From: Hydra vulgaris
Lineage: Eukaryota; Cnidaria; Hydrozoa; Anthoathecata; Hydridae
Direction of reading: 5' to 3'
DNA length: 64,000 bases
Assembly (NCBI RefSeq): GCF_038396675.1
Contig: NC_088931.1
Span: 62,713,501 to 62,777,500, forward strand
The notes under the pieces are model-generated. The model was not told the DNA's origin. It worked only from the letters and a program-made list of their open reading frames with translations, and did not search any database. The position numbers and the translations under genes are program-made. Below, piece by piece: positions 9,397 through 50,005 of the stretch (its first letter is position 1; each line of letters opens with the position of its first letter).

Positions 9397-10762
9397 CAGT
9401 GGTGGCCAAAAGTCTTGGAACAAAACATTTAAAGACCAAAAAAATTTATTTTTGATCTAAAGTATAAATTTTGAAAGTTTGATGCTTTTGTTTTTACATA
9501 GCAATATGTTTATAGTTACATATTTGTATATTGCGCAATTTATTATCGTTTTTTATTATTCATAAGCAATTTATCAGCTATATTATGCCAGAACTTTCAC
9601 CTAAAAAAAGAGGAATTATTGCTGCATTATATGAACAAGGTTTAGTTCAAAGAGAAATATCTGAAAAGCTTGGTTGTTCATTATCAACTGTAAGTAGAAC
9701 TTTAAAAAGGCATAAAGAAGAGCCCCAATTAAATTTTACTTCAAAGATGAGATCAGGCAGGCCCAGAGCAACCACCTCAAGAACTGACAAACTTATTGGC
9801 CGGATCAGCCATGCAAATCCACGGCTATCTGCACACGAGATTTCAAAAGAAATTTTTATTGAGAAAAAAGTAAGTGACGGAACAGTTAGAAGAAGGCTTT
9901 TGGTTGATTTCAAAATGAAGGCATGCAAGCCTGCAAAAAAACCTTTGTCATCATTAAAAAACCTAAAAGATCGAAAAACATTTTGTCAGCGCTACAAAAA
10001 TTGGACTGGAGAAAATTGGTCTAAAGTTATTTTTTCTGATGAAACATGTATTAAACAATTTAATGTTACAAACAACTTTGTAAAAAGACCAAAAATATGT
10101 GGATATATGCCAAAATATACAGTTAGCAGTGTCAAGGCTCCTGTGTCTTGTATGGTTTGGGGTGCTATTTCTGCCAAAGAACGTGGGCCATTATGGATAA
10201 TGCCCAAGAATACCACAATAAACAGCAAAGTCTATTTGGATGTTATGAAGGAGAAGTTGCCACCTTTCATGCAGATCTTGAATTGCACGTATTTCCAACA
10301 GGATGGTGCACCATGCCACACAGCCAAAATTGTAAAGAAGTGGTTTGCTGATGAAGGAATTCAAACCCTTGAAAATTGGCCTGGGTCATCAACAGATCTT
10401 AATGTTATTGAAAATTGTTGGCATATTATGAAAGTAAAAGTTGCTGCCAAAAAGCCTAGATCCTATAATGATTTAGTTGAACCAATCAAATCAGTGTGGA
10501 TCCATGAAATTACACCAGACTATTGTACAAAACTTGTTAACAGCATGCCAAAACGTATCCAAATGGTAATTGACAATAACTATGCTTCCATTAAATATTG
10601 AACTTTTATCATGTATGTGCATGTACCTATCATCTTTAAAATTGTTATAAACACTTATTTTATTGAAAAAAATAAAAAAATTTACTAATAAATTATTTTT
10701 CACACAAATATATTGATTTCATAACATAAAATATGATGTTCCAGGACTTTTGGCCACCACTG
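9397..10762 (+). mobile_element. Tc1/mariner element, 1366 bp, nearly intact
   Basis: The inverted ends are 'cagtggtggccaaaagtctt' at 9397 and its reverse complement ending at 10762, with two mismatches in the first 24 bases. A TA precedes the left end (9395-9396). The right side reads TG instead of TA, a point change or imprecise repair. One uninterrupted transposase gene fills the middle. It is inserted in the hAT gene. Confidence 0.92.
9585..10601 (+). CDS. Tc1/mariner transposase, DD35E, intact
   Basis: The enzyme would cut and paste its own element at TA sites. I chose the ATG at 9585 (338 residues) over the in-frame ATG at 9531, because homologues begin directly with the paired-like helix-turn-helix. 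Residues 1-50 form the first HTH (KKRGIIAALYEQGLVQREIS). GRPR at 58-61 is an AT-hook-like motif linking to a second HTH at about 65-110. The catalytic residues are D152 (FSDET), D240 (QQDGAPCHTA) and E276 (NVIENCW). The D-E spacing is 35 residues, not the usual 34 of Tc1, because of one extra residue near 'ENWPGSSTD'. There are no stops or frameshifts, so the copy may still be functional or is very young. Confidence 0.92.
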   Translation: MPELSPKKRGIIAALYEQGLVQREISEKLGCSLSTVSRTLKRHKEEPQLNFTSKMRSGRPRATTSRTDKLIGRISHANPRLSAHEISKEIFIEKKVSDGTVRRRLLVDFKMKACKPAKKPLSSLKNLKDRKTFCQRYKNWTGENWSKVIFSDETCIKQFNVTNNFVKRPKICGYMPKYTVSSVKAPVSCMVWGAISAKERGPLWIMPKNTTINSKVYLDVMKEKLPPFMQILNCTYFQQDGAPCHTAKIVKKWFADEGIQTLENWPGSSTDLNVIENCWHIMKVKVAAKKPRSYNDLVEPIKSVWIHEITPDYCTKLVNSMPKRIQMVIDNNYASIKY

Positions 10763-15329: not shown

Positions 15330-16664
15330 AATTCCGGACAAATTTTTGGCGAGTTGTGAAAAAAAATATTTATTGTGAGCGAAAACGTAATTCTAAATTA
15401 TTTTTCTTGCTTCAATTGTCGCTTTCTCTATCAAAGCACCCAAGTCGAACAATGCGCCAGACAACTCAAAAAAAGATAAGAAAACAACTCACTGAGTTTG
15501 AAAAGGGCCAAATTGTGGCATGGCATGAAAGTGGATACACTGACCATGAAATTGGAAAAAAATTGAATCGATGGTGCACTACAATTCGAAGATTTTTGTT
15601 CAAGTATTATTTGACGGGAAGTTTTAAGCGCAAAGAAGGGAGTGGAAGAAGGCGTAAAACAACTGCCAGAGAGGACAGATTAATTATAAGAGAGGTTCGA
15701 AAGAATAGAAAGATAACAGCGGCTGAAATAAAGAGAAATTTTAAACTGGATGTTTACGAACGGGCGGTTCTTCGAAGGATCCATTCTATTGGGAAACTTA
15801 AATCTTACTGAAGTGTTAAAAAACCAGTTATTTCTGAAAGTAACCGGAAAAAAAGACTTCAATGGGCAAAGCAATATCAAAATTGGACCATCAAACAATG
15901 GAAAAATGTTTTATGGAATGATGAGTCACCATTTTGTTTGTGCTTCAGTGGACGGTCGCGTCTTTGGCGGTTACATAATGAACGTTACGATCCCTTAGTA
16001 ACACAGCCAACAGTAAAGCACGATAAAAAAGTGAATGTATGGGGATGTTTTACTTCATTGGGTGTTGGTCGTTTGTATAAAATTCCTGGTATTATGGACA
16101 GTAAAATGTACAAACAAATCTTAATTGATCAACTGATACCTAGTGCAAATGAGCTCTTTAAAGATAAAAGTTGGTTCTTTCAGCAAGATAATGACCCGAA
16201 ACATACGGCAAACAATGTGAAAAATTATTTGAAGAACAAAAAATTAGTGGTTCTTTCTTGGCCAGCTCAAAGTCCTGATCTGAACCCTATCGAGGATCTC
16301 TGGAGTATATTGGATCATGGAATCAAGACAAGAGCTCCAAAAAATGAAGAAGAGTTGTTTCAAATTCTTCAAAATCAATGGAAGAACATTTCTGGGGAAC
16401 TCTTACAATCACTTGTTGAGAGTATGCCTCGTCGGTGCAAGGCAGTGATCAAAAGCCGTGGCTTCACCACAAAGTATTAGTTTGGTCTATTTCGTTATTT
16501 CAATAAAAATTCTCAAATTTTCGTCATTTTTTTCTTGTTTTTTTTCTATCAAAGAATCAATGCACCAAATAAAAATTTTTTGTTTATTTTTTTCTATATC
16601 AGTTGTAGAAATTTAGTTGAGTTCTCTTGCATGTCTATCTAAGCTTTTTTTTTGTCGGACACTG
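15330..16664 (+). mobile_element. Tc1 element nested in Kolobok-like copy 1
   Basis: The right end '...gtcggacactg' stops at 16664 and is followed by TA. The left end is worn: 'ccggacaaattttt' near 15334 is the best match to the inverted end 'cagtgtccgacaaaaaaa', so the left limit is approximate. It contains one transposase gene. Confidence 0.75.
15452..16480 (+). pseudogene. Tc1 transposase, DD34E, one premature stop
   Basis: The frame has 343 codons from the ATG at 15452. An N-terminal HTH runs from 'LTEFEKGQIVAWHESGYT' to 'FKRKEGSGRRRKTT', and a second HTH follows to about codon 118. The catalytic residues lie in 'WNDESPF', 'QQDNDPKHTA' and 'SPDLNPIEDLW', with the canonical 34-residue D-E spacing. 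The only lesion is an in-frame TGA at 15809-15811 (codon 120), between the DNA-binding and catalytic halves. The second half, from about 15938, is still open. This is a different lineage from the DD35E copy at 9585. Confidence 0.88.
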
Positions 16665-19343: not shown

Positions 19344-19480
19344 GGGTTTGTCCATAAACTACGTCACACTTAAAAGAGGAAGGGGGGGGGGGAAGGAGTA
19401 GGCGATTTTGTGACTATTTGTTACAAGGGGAAGGGGGAAGGTTTCTCAATTTTGTGACGAAAAATTTTTTTCAGTTCTAA
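19344..19480 (+). repeat. Solo transposon terminus related to the 46.4-kb element
   Basis: After a TA, 'gggtttgtccataaactacg' resembles the 'ggggtcatccataaa' end of the element at 46403. It is likewise followed by G-rich runs (19380-19440). I found no inverted partner downstream, so it is a solo end or a deleted element. Confidence 0.5.
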
Positions 19481-20491: not shown

Positions 20492-21166
20492 ATGCCTAAG
20501 TCTCGAAGAAATAAAGTTATTTCTCTAAGTAAAACAACAAAGAAAGAATTTCAAACTAAAAAAAGTCTTGTTGATGAGATTCGTAAGTGCTGTGATGAGT
20601 ATACATCTCTTTATGTATTTTCCGTTGAAAACATGAGGAACGATAAGCTTAAAGACGTTCGACAAAAGTGGAAAACGAGTCGTTTTTTTTATGGAAAAAA
20701 CAAAGTAATGGCTTTTGGTTTAGGAAGAACTAAAGAAATTGAATATAAAGAAAATCTACACAAAATATCATCGGAGCTCGTAGGTAATGTTGGAATCATG
20801 TTTACAAACGAGTCACAACAAGTTGTGAAAGAATGGTTTGAAAAATTTTCAGAAGTTGATTACGCCCGATCAGGAAATATAGCTACACAAACCGTTACGA
20901 TACCAGAAGGACCTCTTGATGAAAATTCATTTCAGTACACGATGGAACCTGTACTGAGAGCCCTTGGTTTACCGGTTATTCTTCAAAAGGGTGTGATTCA
21001 ACTCACTCAAGAATATACAGTCTGCAAAGAGGGAGATACACTTTCGCCTGAGCAATGTAAAGTTTTGAAACTTTTTTCATATCCTTTAGCAGTATTCCAT
21101 ATTACATTAAAATGTGTTTGGCATTCAACAGGACAATTTGAATTGTTTAACACTGAAAATCAATAA
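20492..21166 (+). CDS. MRTO4: mRNA turnover protein 4 homologue, ribosome assembly factor
   Basis: MRTO4 is a nucleolar relative of the stalk protein P0 (uL10). In known systems it occupies the P0 site on pre-60S particles and is later exchanged for P0. The frame is complete at 224 residues, close to the family length. It starts 'MPKSRRNKVISLSKTTKK', a basic N-terminus typical of MRT4. The P0-like core follows ('YVFSVENMRNDKLKDVRQKW', then 'FFYGKNKVMAFGLGRTKE'), and the MRT4 insert domain runs from about residue 120 ('TVTIPEGPLDENSFQYTMEP', 'LRALGLPVILQKGVIQL') to 'LSPEQCKVLKLFSYPLAVF'. There is no P-protein acidic tail, as expected. The gene is a single exon with no stops or frameshifts, and a poly(A) signal follows 43 bases after the stop codon. 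It is the clearest host gene in the window. Confidence 0.96.
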   Translation: MPKSRRNKVISLSKTTKKEFQTKKSLVDEIRKCCDEYTSLYVFSVENMRNDKLKDVRQKWKTSRFFYGKNKVMAFGLGRTKEIEYKENLHKISSELVGNVGIMFTNESQQVVKEWFEKFSEVDYARSGNIATQTVTIPEGPLDENSFQYTMEPVLRALGLPVILQKGVIQLTQEYTVCKEGDTLSPEQCKVLKLFSYPLAVFHITLKCVWHSTGQFELFNTENQ

Positions 21167-30396: not shown

Positions 30397-31077
30397 ATGC
30401 GTAAATCGTTTTCAACACCTGATTTGTTTCGAGGAAATAATAATGACTTTGAAATCAAACTATCACATAATCAAATTGCTAATGCTGAAAAATCTATAGC
30501 AAATCTTATTAGAGATTTTACTAACATATCAGTAGACATGCATCGTCTAGAAAGTCGTTATATTGATCTTTGTAATACACTTAATGATCTTGCTGCTTTT
30601 GAAAGTCCAATGTTCAGTAGATGTTTAAAAGGTGTATGTAAACACTTTCATGACACAGTTAGAGCACTTAAAGATCACACCGAAGTGATACAAAACAAGG
30701 TTATTTTACATCTTTCTGAAAATATTGATGGCTGTAATGCAACTCGACATTATCTAAAAAAATATACTGGAGAAAAAACAAAAGTAAAAGAAAATATCTC
30801 AGAAAGCTTTGTAATTACCCAACAAATAGATGAACTTAATAAAAAAATGGAACATTTTGAAAAAGAAAAAATTGATTGTTTGCATACTTGTTTTAAAAGA
30901 TTTATTCATAGTAGTCTTGCTTATCACATTAAAGGTGTTGAAAATATGACAGAAGCTTACAAAGCACTTGCTCAGTTAAGTAAATATGACCATTTAGACT
31001 ATATGAATAAAAAGTTGTTACCGTCAGCTGATAAAGTTCGATTAGAATTTGTGCGTCGTAATTCAATTCGTAAATAA
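30397..31077 (+). CDS. CIBAR1: CIBAR1/FAM92-like BAR-domain protein
   Basis: FAM92/CIBAR proteins are curved BAR-domain dimers that bind membranes and, in known animals, work with Chibby at ciliary basal bodies. The frame is complete at 226 residues. After a short basic N-terminus the protein is almost all helical with heptad-like spacing (about 20-215). Family-like points are 'ANAEKSIANLIRDF' at the first helix, 'DLAAFESPMF' (family: A-x-E-x-P), 'MEHFEKEKIDCLHTCFKRFI' (family: NFE-x-QK...KTIFSEFI) with 'LAYHIKGVENMTEAYKAL', and the ending 'DKVRLEFVRRNSIRK'. A possible splice or trans-splice acceptor (ttatttag) lies 11 bases before the ATG, and an AATAAA follows 22 bases after the stop codon. 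The single coding exon could be ancestral or a retrocopy. Family assignment is good; orthology to CIBAR1 rather than CIBAR2 is not decided. Confidence 0.75.
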   Translation: MRKSFSTPDLFRGNNNDFEIKLSHNQIANAEKSIANLIRDFTNISVDMHRLESRYIDLCNTLNDLAAFESPMFSRCLKGVCKHFHDTVRALKDHTEVIQNKVILHLSENIDGCNATRHYLKKYTGEKTKVKENISESFVITQQIDELNKKMEHFEKEKIDCLHTCFKRFIHSSLAYHIKGVENMTEAYKALAQLSKYDHLDYMNKKLLPSADKVRLEFVRRNSIRK

Positions 31078-41729: not shown

Positions 41730-43460
41730 TTACAAAAACTTAGAACAATTACTACACTTCCACTCCATGACTTTAACATCATCTAATTCAGTTATCATAG
41801 TACATTTTACATGATACCAAATGTCACAAACATCGCAGCACACCCACTGATCACCTTTATCTCCACAGTCACCACATTCAGGACATACAATATTGCTGTT
41901 GTCATCATTATCATTTTTATTTTTTTTTTTTTTTTTCTTCAATTTTTTGTTTTGTTTTTTTGAGGCTTCTCTTGTTCGTTTTAAACATGCTTCTGATGTT
42001 AAACTTTCACCATAGCGAAACCTTTTAACCCGTGCAGATCTTCCATGAAGAGAGGTTTCTGCACATTTAGACTGTAATTGCTTAAGAAAAAAATCTTTGA
42101 TAGAGGAAGTCGATGTAAAAACTGGTAATGATGAAGCCGATGATATTGATGTTGAAATGGGAGCATCGTTAACACAAATGCTTTGAAGATTAGGCATTGA
42201 ACATGATCTTGTGAGATGATTAGTGGAGAATGTAGGTTTCTTTACATGTGACTGAAAACACTGATTAAATAAACGTGTGTCAATAGCATCTTTGTTAAGA
42301 GGGAAAATGCCAGTTCCCTTAAAACCACTTTTGACTTGTTCCATAGTAAAGGAACTCTGAAAAAGGGTACGTAGTAGCCCTGGAAAATGTTTCTTGGATA
42401 CTGGTCCATTATGTGTTCTTGCATATTTTATAAGCAAACTTTGCCATTTACTTTTTACAGGTCGAAAAACTGATGTGTCTAAAGGTTGAAGAAGATGGGT
42501 GAGATGAGCAGGAATCCGTAGGAGAATAACATTATTTTTTTTTGCCAAATCAATAAGTGGGGAGCTAATATGAGAAATATGACCATCAAATATAAGAACA
42601 CGTGGGCGGTTTGCAAGATGCTTTGTATACATTAGAAATATGCTTTGAAACCATTCTAAAAAATGAGGGCACTCCATCCAGCCCTTACTACTAGTAGTAT
42701 AAACAGCTCCATCAGGGCCACCTTTAACCCAGTCCTTATACAAATTTTTTCCTTTGTAGATAATATATGGTGGCAATATATGCCCACTAGCAGAACATGC
42801 ACAATTGACAGTAATTTGCTCCCGGCCTGACCCACCAATGCTTTGCGACACTCGAGAAGCACCTCGTTTTGCTAATACAATTTGCTCCTTTGGGTCAGTG
42901 ATGAACCCCGATTCATCAGAATTGAATATTTGACTAGGAAGGTTAATAATTCCTGCATTTTTTAATGTTTTTTCGACTAGATCAAACCAAATTTTGATGG
43001 TCTCAGGATTTTCAGCATGGTTTCTTGAATTGCTTAAATGTTCAGTTTTTCTTGGCGTAATTTTGGGATTTCGTTGTAAGAAAGCATGCAACCAGTCTTT
43101 ACTTGGTCTAGAATCTATAAATGGTGTATCAATACTGTTTGTTTTAAGAAAATCTTGTATCAAATCTTTTACTTCACCTCTAGTAAAACCCCATCCCCAA
43201 TCAGCCATTAAAATAAGACATTCTGACAGCTCTTTTTCTTGCTGTGAGGTCAAAACTGTTTTTCGTCCTGGATGAGAGTCAACTGATAGTTCACCGTTTA
43301 CTCTTTTTGAAAGAGCTCTCCTGTCACACCTAAAATGTTTGGATGCCTGGTTTATTGACATTTCTTTATTCAAAACAGAACTGCAGGCATCTTTCATTTC
43401 CTGGCTATTTGAGTAGGATTTCCTTCCTCCCTGCTTTAACTTTTTGTATGTTCGAACCAT
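41730..43460 (-). CDS. pogo/jerky-like transposase with C-terminal PHD finger, intact
   Basis: 576 residues with no stop or frameshift. Residues 10-56 are a psq-type HTH ('MSINQASKHFRCDRRALSKR'). About 57-150 is a CENP-B-like second DNA-binding domain ('WGWGFTRGEVKDLIQDFL', 'SKDWLHAFLQRNPKI'). The DDE domain spans about 160-390 with D182 (FNSDESGF), D292 (LIFDGHISH) and D328 (LLQPLDTSVF), that is DD35D spacing, all present. A lysine-rich low-complexity linker (about 500-515) leads to a PHD finger at about 526-572 with the C4-H-C3 pattern (CPEC, CCDVC, WYHVKC, WKCSNC). Transposases of this group cut and paste at TA; a PHD finger would let the protein read histone H3 tails, which could steer target choice (inference). 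A long A run just 5' of the start codon separates it from the element end. It may be active or a candidate for co-option. Confidence 0.93.
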   Translation of the reverse strand: MVRTYKKLKQGGRKSYSNSQEMKDACSSVLNKEMSINQASKHFRCDRRALSKRVNGELSVDSHPGRKTVLTSQQEKELSECLILMADWGWGFTRGEVKDLIQDFLKTNSIDTPFIDSRPSKDWLHAFLQRNPKITPRKTEHLSNSRNHAENPETIKIWFDLVEKTLKNAGIINLPSQIFNSDESGFITDPKEQIVLAKRGASRVSQSIGGSGREQITVNCACSASGHILPPYIIYKGKNLYKDWVKGGPDGAVYTTSSKGWMECPHFLEWFQSIFLMYTKHLANRPRVLIFDGHISHISSPLIDLAKKNNVILLRIPAHLTHLLQPLDTSVFRPVKSKWQSLLIKYARTHNGPVSKKHFPGLLRTLFQSSFTMEQVKSGFKGTGIFPLNKDAIDTRLFNQCFQSHVKKPTFSTNHLTRSCSMPNLQSICVNDAPISTSISSASSLPVFTSTSSIKDFFLKQLQSKCAETSLHGRSARVKRFRYGESLTSEACLKRTREASKKQNKKLKKKKKKNKNDNDDNSNIVCPECGDCGDKGDQWVCCDVCDIWYHVKCTMITELDDVKVMEWKCSNCSKFL

Positions 43461-44263: not shown

Positions 44264-45600
44264 TAAGGGATTTTCAGCAATAGAAACATTTTGTGGAATT
44301 ATGAACATGAACCCTCCAATGAATAAAAACTGCTATAATGACACATTGCACATAATGTTGGATGTCTATCAAAGTTTGGTTGACAAAAGCATGTCAAATG
44401 CAGCAAATGAGTTACTATCAATCAATGAAACATCTAAAGATATTATTTGTGGGTTTGATGGATCATGGCAGAAACGTGGATACACCTCAAACAATGGATT
44501 AGTAACAGCTGTTGCTGTAGAAAATGGTAAGTGTGTTGATTACGAAATAGAAACAAAAACTTGTAAGTTGTGTTCTATATGGGAGTTAAAAAAGTACACA
44601 CATCATGAAGAATATAATGATTTTCACTCCTTACATTATAAAAAGTGCAAAATCAGTCATACCGGTTCAGCCTCCTCTATGGAATCAAGTGGTACAATAA
44701 AAATATTTTTGCGTTCTGAAAAAAAAAATAATTTGAGATATGCAACGTTTCTAGGAGATGGAGATAGCAGTTCATATGTTAATGTCGTTTCTGCAAAACC
44801 TTATGGAGATTTTGAAATAAAAAAAGCAGAGTGCATTGGGCATATTCAAAAACGTGTTGGTACTAGATTAAGAAACTTAAAAAAACAAAATAAAGAAACT
44901 TTATGTGATGGCAAAAAGTTAGGAGGAGCAGGTCGCTTAACAGAACATGTTATAAATACATTGCAAAATTATTATGGTAAGGCAATAAGGCAAAACGTTG
45001 GAAATTTATATGGAATGAAAAAGAGTGTTGCAGCTGTACTTTTTCACTGTTCTGAAAGTTGTGATGGCGAAACGCGTCATTCAGTTTTGTTTGCGTACCA
45101 AAGATTCTTGGTGCAAATTCCAGTCTGACAAACTGACTGGCAAAATTTCATATAAAGAAAATATTTGTATTCCCGCTGCTGTCTGCAACACCATCAAACC
45201 AATATTTATAGACCTTGGTTCCGATAAACTTCTTGAAAAATGTTTGCATGGAAAAACGCAGAATCCCAATGAGTCTTTAAACCAGTTGATATGGAAGCGA
45301 TGCCCAAAAGATATATTTATTGAAAGAACTGCTCTAAGTATAGAAGTAGCCTCAGCTGTACTAAATTTTAATGAAGGGCAGCAGTTCTTAAATAAATTGT
45401 TTAATGAGCTTGGAATGGAATTCGGTGTAAATGCGCAAAATTACTGTTTACGTAAAGACAATAAACGAATCATTAAAGCAGAAAAACAATGTAGTACTAA
45501 AGTAAAATCAAGAAGAAAAAAGTTAAGAGCAATAAAAAAAGGTTTTTGTGACCAAAATGAAGAACTGGAAGGTGTAACTTATAAAAGTGGTGAATTTTGA
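44264..45600 (+). pseudogene. Kolobok/Mutator-like transposase, copy 2, C-terminal part
   Basis: The frame resumes straight after the TA with 'GFSAIETFCGIMN' and stays open to 45127. Blocks: 'DIICGFDGSWQKRGYTSNNG' (first acidic residue), 'KTCKLCSIWELKKY' (C-x2-C), 'SHTGSASSMESSG', 'ATFLGDGDSSSYVNV' (second acidic block), 'KKAECIGHIQKRVGTRLRN', 'GAGRLTEHVINTLQNYYG'. One frameshift near 45082 shifts to the second frame, which continues 'KDSWCKFQSDKLTGK' and 'KCLHGKTQNPNESLNQLIWK' (the conserved H...NPNE block) to the basic end 'RRKKLRAIKKGF' and a stop at 45598-45600. Apart from the pogo insertion it has only two frameshifts, so it is much younger than copy 1. Confidence 0.85.
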
Positions 45601-46402: not shown

Positions 46403-49400
46403 GGGGTCATCCATAAAGGATGTCAGTAAATATAGGGGGAGGGGGGAGGGAGTGCTTGAAAGTTTGACACTAATTGACAATGGGGAGGGGGTGTTGAGGC
46501 CAAAATGATGTCAATTTAAATTATTTTTTTAGTTTTAATGAGCAGATTTTAACGGTATTTACATCTACTAAATGGTATAGAAATGGTGTTTTGTTTGTGG
46601 GGAAATTAATATTAAATGCGGGGAATTTGACAATATATTTTATTAAATTATTTATAATATAATATTATAAATTAGTATAATAAGTTTCCTAGAGACATTA
46701 AATAAATAACAACTACTAACGTAATATAAAATTCACAATCGTTATTCGCTAGCGGATTATAAAACGTGGTTCAAAGTAAACTCATAAAAGTTAAACTCAT
46801 AAATTTGTCATTTTTTGAAATTAAATTGTCGTTATTTGAAATACGAAACTCTAGTTGCTCTCTAGTTGATTGTAAAACGTGATGCAATACAAACACGTAA
46901 AGTCTATTGAAAATTCGAAACGCTAATTTCTCGCTAGCAGGTTGAAGAAACTATTTTTAAAAACTTGCGCTAACAATGAGCAAAATCATTATTCTGATTG
47001 TGATGTAAGCAATACTAATAAATCAATATTAAAATATGAATAAAACCGCATTACTTAACTTATTGATGGTCTCGTATGGAAATGCTCATCCCGATAAAAA
47101 AAAAGAGGCTAATATCCAGAAAGAAGTCCATAGTATATGGAATTCATTAAAAGAAGAGAAACTGGTGCATAAGGATCTTGAATCAAGAGTAATGTATTTA
47201 ATCAATTTATTTAATGAAAAAGCAATGAAGTTCAAGAGCAAGAAATTATCGTTTTGGATTAATACTCCAAAACAGTCTGCTCCCACGTATACTCCACTTG
47301 AGTTTGACAAGAATTCCTCACAGTTTGTTGAGCCCACCAATGAGCGATCTGGTATTGATGATCAATAAAGTGCATTAACTTTGAGTTTGTTGACCACGAA
47401 AAATCAAAAAAATGCAAGAACAGTGGTTCAAGATCGACTCAATTCTGAGATTGCAGCTTTAAATTGTGAAGTTGCTGGACTAAGGACTTGAAAGAGAAGT
47501 GGATTCATTGCTGAAGCTGAAGAGGATGATTTGAAAAAGAAAAAGAAGAAACTAGCTCATCTATGTAAAGAACTGGCCAAAAAAAAGTATGATCAAGCTC
47601 AACAGAAGAAAACTAGAGAACTGAAAAAAGCTAGAATGGAGAAAATCTGCTTGGAGCATCCAGAAGTCAAACAAATACTAAAAATCAAAAAGAAACCTGG
47701 TTGACCGTCATTAGAAGTAGATCAACCTCTTCTTTTGAAGACGTTTATGGATATTGCTCCCCATGGTTCGTCCGCTGATGAAAGACGTCGGTCAGAGGTT
47801 CTTCGGGTAACGATAGCTTAGCTATGTTTGCTAATATTGTATTTGTTAGAATTTCACTCTTAATTAGCACTTGCACTATTGTAAATATCCTTGAAATGTT
47901 AACAACTAATTTCAAGATTTGATTTGAACATAATTTACGAAATAAATCCCGTTTTCTGTAAAAAAGTTAATTATATCCAAATATATTTCTTTATTATTTA
48001 GAGCATTAAAACTCTCGACGAATTGACATCCGAGATGAACAAAATTGGATTTGCAATCAGCAAGAGCGCTCTTACTCGTCTACTTCCGAGAAGTTACGGA
48101 ACATTAGATGGCAAAAGGCACGTCAAAACAGTCCCTGTTAGATTGATCAGTCCTCAGAATGAATCTCATTTAAAACATGTTGACGTTCTCTTTTGCAGTT
48201 CAGCTATAAAATATGCGGAAGAAGTTTGTTCTATTATAGGGCTAGATGAAGTGTGTTTCATTAGCCAAGACGACAAGGCTAGAGTGCCAATCGGAATCAC
48301 GGCAGCAAAAAAATAGACGCCGTTGTTAATGCATTTGGAGTACCGGGTAACTCTCCGGGACCATGACTGGGTCGTGGCTGCTAAACACAAGCTTATACCA
48401 TCTGTATACGCTGGAATTACGATCAAAAAAGATGGTCTCGGAAAAACAGATGCTGTTACTTATTCTGGACCTACCTACATTGCTTTTTGATCAGGTAAAC
48501 ACGCATCCTCGACCGCCTTCGCTCATGGATTAGACTTTCAGCGGCTCTTGGATATCAAAGAATTCGACTCTATTACCAGAGGTTCTCAAACTAATATGGT
48601 TAAGCCTATCGTTGTGTTTAGCGTCAATGGAGGACCCGACGAAAATCCCAGATACCAGAAAGTAATTGAAATCGGGATTCACCATTTTTTGAAGAATAAT
48701 CTTGAAGCTCTTTTCATCATGACAAACGCTACAGGCCGCAGTGCATTCAACAGAGCTGAGCGACGAATGGCACCTCTAAGTAAAAAAATATCTGTGGCGA
48801 TTCTTTCGCACGAACATTACGGAACTCATCTTGATTCTCAAGGTAATTACATTGACAAAAGTTAATTTTTAAAAATGTTAATATAATTTTTAACCTATAA
48901 TAACCAACATATCTTTTTAAATCAGGCAGAACAATAGATGAAAATTTAGAAAAATAGAGCTTTGGTTTTGCTGGACAGGCTTTGGCTGATCTACAAATTG
49001 ATGGTTATCCGACCATTGCAGAGTATATTGATCCAGACAAATCAGAGCTAAAGTCAAGGAGTCTTTTATTACAAGATCAACGTTGGATTGCCGATCATCT
49101 TCGTACAAGTCAATATTTTACTCAAATTGTGAAATGTGAAAATCGTTCTTGTTGTCGGAATATTAGAAGCTCTTACTTTACTCTAATTAGAGCAAGACTT
49201 CTTCCGCGGCCTGTCCCTGTCAACCAAATGAGAGACGGGCTCGAAGCAGTAGATATTTTAGAAGGAGCCAAAGAATTGTTTCCATCATCCGTCTTTATGC
49301 TCATCGCATCAAACATTGAAAGTATTCTTCCTCGTACTGCCAAAGGATTTCCAATTTTGCCGTATGATGCGTTTTGTCCATTAATTCAGTCTAGCCTAGC

Positions 49401-50005
49401 TGATAGAATCTGTAAAAAATGCAATATCTACTTTGCCTCTCAAGCTATGTTGAAAAAGCACGCTTCTATCCATTCTTCTGCTATAACACTCCCTCTAATC
49501 AAAAGGGTCCAACCTGTTCGTATCGCTGCCAAGCGTCAGACAGAATTTTTGGCAGTCATTGCCTTGCAGAAGAGTTCGGAATCTGCTGAATAGTTAGATG
49601 AAAATGAAGTTGACGCAACGAATTTGATTGTACCTCAAGAATGCGATATCCTTTTAGAGCGCGGAGAGCATTTACTACCTATTGTTTTAATCGATGATCA
49701 CTTCAACAAACCATGGGAAGATTATATTAAAGATATATAATACTCTTTGCTTAGTTGATTATTTAGTGAGATATCGACTATTACATAATATAATTTGATG
49801 AGATCTACTATTATATAAATGTATAATTTAGTCAGAAAAAAAATCAATGGTTTTTAAGCATTTTTACTGTTTTTTAGGGGGAGAGTACACAAAAACTGAC
49901 ATCATATATAACGGGGGGTTGGCCAAAAATTGACAGAGTTTGACAAAGGGGGAGGATGAGTCGAGAAATTGAGAAAAAACACTGACATCATTTATGGATG
50001 ACCCC
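46403..50005 (+). mobile_element. Unclassified DDE-like transposon with G-rich ends and TAA duplication
   Basis: The inverted ends are 'ggggtcatccataaaggatg' at 46403 and the complement of 'ggggtcatccataaatgatg' ending at 50005, followed inward by 'tcagt' in both. That gives 24 of 25 matching bases. Next to both ends are G-rich runs (46434-46495 and 49876-49960). The 3-bp TAA lies on both sides (46400-46402 and 50006-50008). A 3-bp TAA duplication and GGG start fit PIF/Harbinger-type targeting, but the protein inside is not the Harbinger transposase I know. It contains one three-exon gene. Confidence 0.85.
47036..49740 (+). pseudogene. Putative DDE-type transposase with C2H2 finger, three exons, seven stops
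   Basis: The exons are inferred as 47036-47806, 48002-48842 and 48926-49740 (introns GT-AG: gtaacg...ttatttag and gtaatt...aaatcag), phases 0 and 1, giving about 808 codons. Exon 1 encodes an N-terminal helical region and a lysine-rich coiled coil (about 47530-47650). Exon 2 holds an HTH-like 'ISKSALTRLLPRS', then 'VCFISQDDKARVPIG' (D), 'PIVVFSVNGGPDENPRYQKV' (D) and 'SAFNRAERRMAPLSKK' (E), spaced like an RNase H-fold DDE core. Exon 3 has 'RICKKCNIYFASQAMLKKH' (C-x2-C-x12-H) near 49410-49465. In-frame stops: about 47366, 47489, 47702, 48314, 48487, 48954 and 49591. There are no frameshifts. I do not recognise the superfamily; the DDE reading is an inference from motif order. Confidence 0.7.

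Follow-up and report, generated by a model that had tools for sequence, protein, structure and literature searches.

PIF/Harbinger transposons duplicate TWA targets and encode DDE_Tnp_4 or a related DDE domain, whereas Tc1/mariner elements duplicate TA. A further superfamily, Zator, is said to have been described originally by Bao et al. in 2009. In the excerpted parts of the papers cited here by PMC number, Zator is described as similar to ISAzo13, with 3-bp duplications in both (PMC10045372), is paired with ISAzo13-like elements (PMC5718144), is related to bacterial TP36 and placed near IS630/Tc1-mariner (PMC7386202), and appears as animal-only in one list (PMC4438587). Culex quinquefasciatus is given as the Zator-richest mosquito (PMC7728395), and in a mollusc survey Zator is reported as rare and confined to bivalves (PMC10294476). 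Excerpts of PMC5199201, PMC11071193, PMC9783078, PMC12239620 and PMC12958814 list or count Zator and were not used in the class decision. Here, these systems are compared with a 3603-bp element in a 64,000-nucleotide stretch of the Hydra vulgaris genome (NC_088931.1, forward-strand positions 62,713,501 to 62,777,500), referred to as the window.

The element, which retains both ends, is probably a decayed, once-autonomous cut-and-paste DNA transposon of an animal lineage related to ISAzo13, most likely Zator as known here from published descriptions only. It would thus most likely be an insertion of an already recognised kind, with no new class required. The 25-bp inverted ends recognised in the initial annotation, with one mismatch, were recovered by an inverted-repeat computation on the window as 26-nt arms with 96% complementarity. 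The three-exon gene proposed there also stands: with junctions picked at GT/AG from the sequence alone, the exons form a single frame of 808 codons with a final stop, and no frameshift was seen in this joined frame. However, the frame is interrupted by seven in-frame internal stops (one TAA, three TGA and three TAG), and the second catalytic aspartate is replaced by N at position 466. Because of these changes the gene is, as judged from its reading frame, dead, and the window copy would have no capacity for a working enzyme now; an intact autonomous copy is ruled out on the same grounds. The description of the transposon as complete therefore applies to its ends and not to its gene.

The encoded protein has relatives in gastropods (57–59% identity), many arthropods, Culex pipiens and Hydra among the best 120 of 387 homologues, annotated only as 'C2H2-type domain-containing' or 'uncharacterized'. 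Of these 120, sets of 71 (A1), 60 (A2) and 26 (A3) sequences were aligned, A3 being a subset that includes the two members with a precomputed match to PF07592 (DDE_Tnp_ISAZ013). Four stretches of viral contigs matched a pattern and none was confirmed as a relative, and plasmids gave no match to P0085. Six of the 60 relatives match PF07592 at E up to 1, the best at 8e-6; of the 59 Pfam families that these relatives match, 25 were listed, with no other DDE family among them.

Prokaryotic proteins of the ISAzo13 type were gathered with a degenerate sequence motif, which gave at least 119 frames, 61 of them past a length filter and 38 aligned; all 38, bacterial and archaeal, match PF07592. Comparison of A2 with the ISAzo13 profile by hhalign with realignment gave a match of 289 columns (E 1.2e-5) with about 20% identity, in which all three acidic residues were paired. 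The profile scores were 54.7 for A2 and 64.6 for A3; column shuffles, 40 for each, reached no more than 26.9 and 25.1, and the reversed-profile controls gave 23.9 and 21.5, respectively. Taken singly against the family profile, the 38 ISAzo13 proteins scored 22.2–56.4, with medians of 32.4 and 32.9, as compared with 16.4–19.4 for four other transposases from the window. As judged by these scores, and since PF07592 has no match above the cut-off in the genome, the homology between the family and ISAzo13 is remote. The profile comparison nevertheless ties to ISAzo13 a protein that had initially been left unclassified, and the cited excerpts pair ISAzo13 with Zator; the link to a named group is thus a sensitive profile match to ISAzo13 and not a direct one to Zator, and only in part the strong superfamily hit that would have overturned the initial interpretation. 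A search of a collection of papers for the family's three motif strings gave no match, which does not in itself exclude publication of the family.

A model predicted for a relative contains a ribonuclease H (RNase H) core with D, D and E on β1, β4 and the following helix, an arrangement given as the criterion for a DDE transposase in the excerpt of PMC5718144. The triad is conserved among the relatives, with a D-D-E spacing of about 118 and 43 residues, and the three acidic blocks from which a DDE transposon had been proposed are present, apart from the N that replaces the aspartate of DGGPDENPR in the window copy. The predicted fold thus agrees with that proposal. When the model was compared by VIA-align with a reference set of mainly transposase and integrase cores, Metnase and Mos1 were the closest solved folds and Sleeping Beauty scored lower. 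No meaningful sequence match to solved structures was obtained for the catalytic core, and a search of the protein against NCBIfam gave a single weak, unrelated match. The C2H2 finger, also noted initially, is weak by Pfam in the window copy; its residues are mostly kept in the 60 relatives (C in 58, C in 57, the first H in 58, and H in 34 or C in 11 at the fourth position).

A search of the whole genome (911.5 Mb in 15 sequences) for the 15-bp end with up to two mismatches gave 4604 + 4654 = 9258 sites, as compared with 350 + 367 = 717 for the reversed control. Paired ends were sought in 41 sources, namely the window and 40 stretches (L009–L028 and L147–L166) taken non-randomly from the first 100 listed end sites, 47 of which lie in the fetched stretches, on sequences 1 and 2. 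No pair was obtained from 22 sources, and the 19 paired elements span 150–4201 bp. Twelve of these, including the window copy, are 2.7–4.2 kb long and have coding matches, all with stops within the matched stretches; at the DNA level, their longer stretches of similarity to the window copy show about 88–94% identity. The remaining seven are short and have no coding match.

Equal 3-bp flanks were found in 15 of the 19 pairs (7 TAA, 4 TTA, 2 TAT, 1 TCT and 1 AGT), including 9 of the 12 coding copies (three TAA, three TTA, TAT, TCT and AGT). Equal 4-bp flanks occur in none of the 19, and only two fit a 2-bp TA duplication. Among 20,000 random re-pairings of the flanks none reached 15 (mean 5.7, maximum 13). 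An empty site was recognised for the 261-bp relative in L024: a paralogous repeat with 77% identity, beside that relative, is free of the insertion and carries a single TAA at the junction. The flank counts, the re-pairing control and the empty site together set the duplication at 3 bp; TWA is strongly preferred, with 11 of 15 equal flanks, but not obligatory, the other four being non-TWA. The TAA reported on both sides of the window copy is present, but it is not constant in the family (7 of the 15).

Beside copies of other subfamilies, the ends are GGGGCTGTCCATTAATTACGTCAAC in L170 and L174 and the near forms GGGGCTGTCCATTAAGTACGTCAAC in L175 and GGGGCCGTCCATAAAGGACTTCACC in L176; only L174 has both ends. 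L175, a related copy, has 524 residues of open frame that include the DENPR and MAPLS blocks. For P0039, a protein named as Hydra vulgaris, exon-sized genome matches of up to 93% identity were obtained; 92 scored of 2561 genome candidates gave 169 matches, several of them without stops. Four of the short elements without coding match (L020, L024, L027 and L156) have the common outer 15 bp followed by GTACGTACG or a near form, and all four have equal 3-bp flanks; they have the look of non-autonomous elements derived from a second subfamily.

Several observations weigh against the assignment of the element to an ISAzo13-related, Zator-like lineage. The hhalign probability for A2 was 81%; without realignment, the best match of A2 was confined to 79 columns of the helix-turn-helix (HTH)-like region, and a match of 270 columns was given by A3, the subset with the PF07592-matched members. 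The weakest single ISAzo13 score, 22.2, lies inside the shuffled-profile range (up to 26.9), and the first ISAzo13 sequence has a D-E spacing of 42, as compared with 43 in the family. PF07592 gave 99 weak matches over the whole genome, none above the cut-off, and the four inspected were three Tc1-type and one other, none of the element's family. The best Z of 9.9 for the predicted model is clear but not high, since according to VIA-align a best Z of 7 to 8 is usual where nothing matches clearly, and Foldseek gave no match for the model at E 0.001 or better. The 3-bp flanks are unequal in 4 of the 19 pairs (L009, L021, L150 and L151) and in L174, and the empty site is that of a short relative with the common outer 15 bp, not of a coding copy. 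The resemblance to Zator would follow from reported features and not from Zator sequences, and the gastropod members contrast with the bivalve-only Zator of the mollusc survey excerpt (PMC10294476).

Part of this evidence could also be read as indicating that the family is an animal superfamily in its own right, as yet without a name, which branched independently in eukaryotes from ISAzo13-like insertion sequences and is sister to Zator; this is considered rather improbable. Such a branch would be recognised by its zinc finger and long N-terminal helices, by the D-D-E spacing given above and by ends like GGGGYYRTCCATWAA, together with doubled GATGTCAG motifs and same-strand G tracts at both ends. 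It would accord with the large profile distance to ISAzo13 and the reach of PF07592 to just 6 of 60 members, and with the lack of family members among the four of 99 PF07592 matches inspected in the element's own genome; however, the same scan turned up no family closer to ISAzo13, and the 3-bp duplication and the prokaryotic relative are those published, in the excerpts, for Zator. Distribution points both ways: gastropod members at 57–59% identity are at variance with a bivalve-limited Zator in molluscs (PMC10294476), but the occurrence of the family in Culex pipiens parallels the richness of Culex quinquefasciatus in Zator (PMC7728395), and Zator is animal-only in the list of PMC4438587.

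That the element is a divergent Tc1/mariner-pogo transposon is very unlikely. The predicted fold is nearest to Metnase and Mos1, with Sleeping Beauty lower, and the excerpted phylogenetic study PMC7386202 places Zator/TP36 near IS630-Tc1-mariner, but the duplication is 3 bp in 15 of the 19 pairs, not TA, and none of the window's Tc1 and pogo-type proteins scores above 19.4 against the family profile. A PIF/Harbinger element, first suggested by the TAA duplication and still favoured by the 11 TWA cases among the 15 equal flanks, is the least credible of all, as TAA is not constant (TAT twice, TCT and AGT are used too), no Harbinger family is among the 25 Pfam families listed of the 59 to which the 60 members have matches (E up to 1), in agreement with the lack of Harbinger motifs noted initially, no Harbinger DDE domain was found by a Pfam search of the window copy, and the profile matches ISAzo13, a Harbinger profile not having been directly compared nor a second, Myb-like gene searched for.

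For a transposon of the preferred ISAzo13-related lineage, the transposase would bind the 25-bp ends, and perhaps also the GATGTCAG repeats 86–88 bp inside each end, through the HTH-like region and/or the zinc finger. The D-D-E site of the predicted RNase H fold would then excise the element, which would be joined to 3-bp staggered cuts at T/A-rich targets to give the 3-bp duplication. On this mechanism, the element would have been mobile. At each end of all 12 aligned coding copies the inverted repeat contains GATGTCAG or a sequence close to it. A second, inner copy of the motif is legible in 11 of the 12 at the left (two with one change; missing in L151) and in all 12 at the right (in some with a single change), and its distance from the outer copy varies with the G tract among the other coding copies. 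Inner and outer copies are putative transposase sites.

G-rich tracts (46403–46510 and 49880–50005 in the window) occupy one and the same strand at the two ends and hence are not part of the terminal inversion; they are kept in 11 of the 12 coding copies and lost in L013. Such same-strand tracts at inverted ends might produce a G-quadruplex strand asymmetry. At 19344–19450 the window has a lone end that reads GGGTTTGTCCATAAACTACGTCAC and contains GTGAC repeats and G tracts, with a similar subterminal G-rich layout. Initially taken as a sign of a family, it has three mismatches to the 15-bp end, which is about chance (mean 1.12 in 100 shuffles of the window), and no partner end was found; a large family is nevertheless indicated by the genome count of ends.

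Table 1. Features of the element and its flanks, in window coordinates.
Feature	Position	Strand	Basis or remark
Left target duplication TAA	46400..46402	.	Read from sequence
Left terminal inverted repeat, 25 bp	46403..46427	+	Aligned with 11 other coding copies
Outer GATGTCAG motif, within left inverted repeat	46418..46426	+	Sequence and copy alignment
Inner motif copy TGATGTCAA, left end	46506..46514	+	88 bp inward, window copy
Exon 1: long helices, then start of HTH-like region (putative roles)	47036..47806	+	Stops at codons 111, 152, 223; helices from predicted model of a relative
Exon 2: remaining HTH-like region and DDE catalytic core	48002..48842	+	Stops at codons 362, 420; predicted fold
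Catalytic D1 codon (D347, in SQDDKARVPIG)	48269..48271	+	Relative alignment, conservation
Codon 466 at catalytic D2 (DGGPDENPR)	48626..48628	+	N in window copy; D in 70/71 relatives
Catalytic E codon (E510, ERRMAPLS)	48758..48760	+	43 residues past position 466
Exon 3: core-region end, cysteine motif, zinc finger, C-terminus	48926..49740	+	Stops at codons 548, 760
C2H2 zinc finger, aa 700–720	49411..49473	+	Pfam E 0.032; conservation
Final stop	49738..49740	+	End of exon 3
Inner motif copy TGATGTCAG, right end	49896..49904	-	86 bp inside outer copy
Right terminal inverted repeat, 25 bp	49981..50005	-	Inverted-repeat computation, copy alignment
Right target duplication TAA	50006..50008	.	Read from sequence

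The window further includes Tc1-type transposase frames at 9531–10601 (356 aa without a stop) and 15356–16480, and a 576-aa open frame on the minus strand (41730–43460) that combines a DDE_1 domain with a PHD finger at its C-terminus and is probably a pogo-type transposase. A Mutator-like transposase frame (44301–45128; PF20700, E 4e-49) lies just upstream of the element. Open frames at 20492–21166 and 30397–31077 match ribosomal protein L10 with its L10P insertion domain and the FAM92 domain, respectively.

The analysis provides a concrete protein, a predicted fold and a duplication record for a little-studied transposon lineage of snails, many arthropods and Hydra. Most members escape the Pfam ISAzo13 model (at E up to 1 it leaves 54 of 60 unmatched), and the genes are therefore named only as 'C2H2-type domain-containing' or 'uncharacterized'. 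A family profile would allow members to be labelled as transposases; apart from this use, the finding is an ordinary one.

Of the known systems, PIF/Harbinger shares with the family a TWA-type 3-bp duplication (11 of 15) and differs in the lack of a protein match among the Pfam families listed and in the use of non-TWA targets by the family. Tc1/mariner transposases (Mos1 and Metnase) share the RNase H fold predicted for the core, but duplicate TA and not 3 bp, and the Tc1 proteins of the window have no profile match above background. ISAzo13 (PF07592) and the family have a colinear HTH-like region and DDE core with the order of motifs kept, SVDTKKKE, D-GG and WNKIEHR in ISAzo13 corresponding to SQDDKARVPIG, DGGPDENPR and FNRVERR in the family, at about 20% identity in the profile alignment and with a D-E spacing of 42 and 43, respectively. 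ISAzo13 proteins are bacterial and archaeal, of 376–553 aa (38 aligned), and show no zinc finger among 25 listed of the 57 Pfam families matched, whereas the element has a two-intron gene in a 911-Mb genome and its family a C-terminal C2H2 finger. Zator, by its published descriptions only, as excerpted, resembles the element in the 3-bp duplication, the ISAzo13/TP36-related transposase, the animal distribution and the position near Tc1/mariner.
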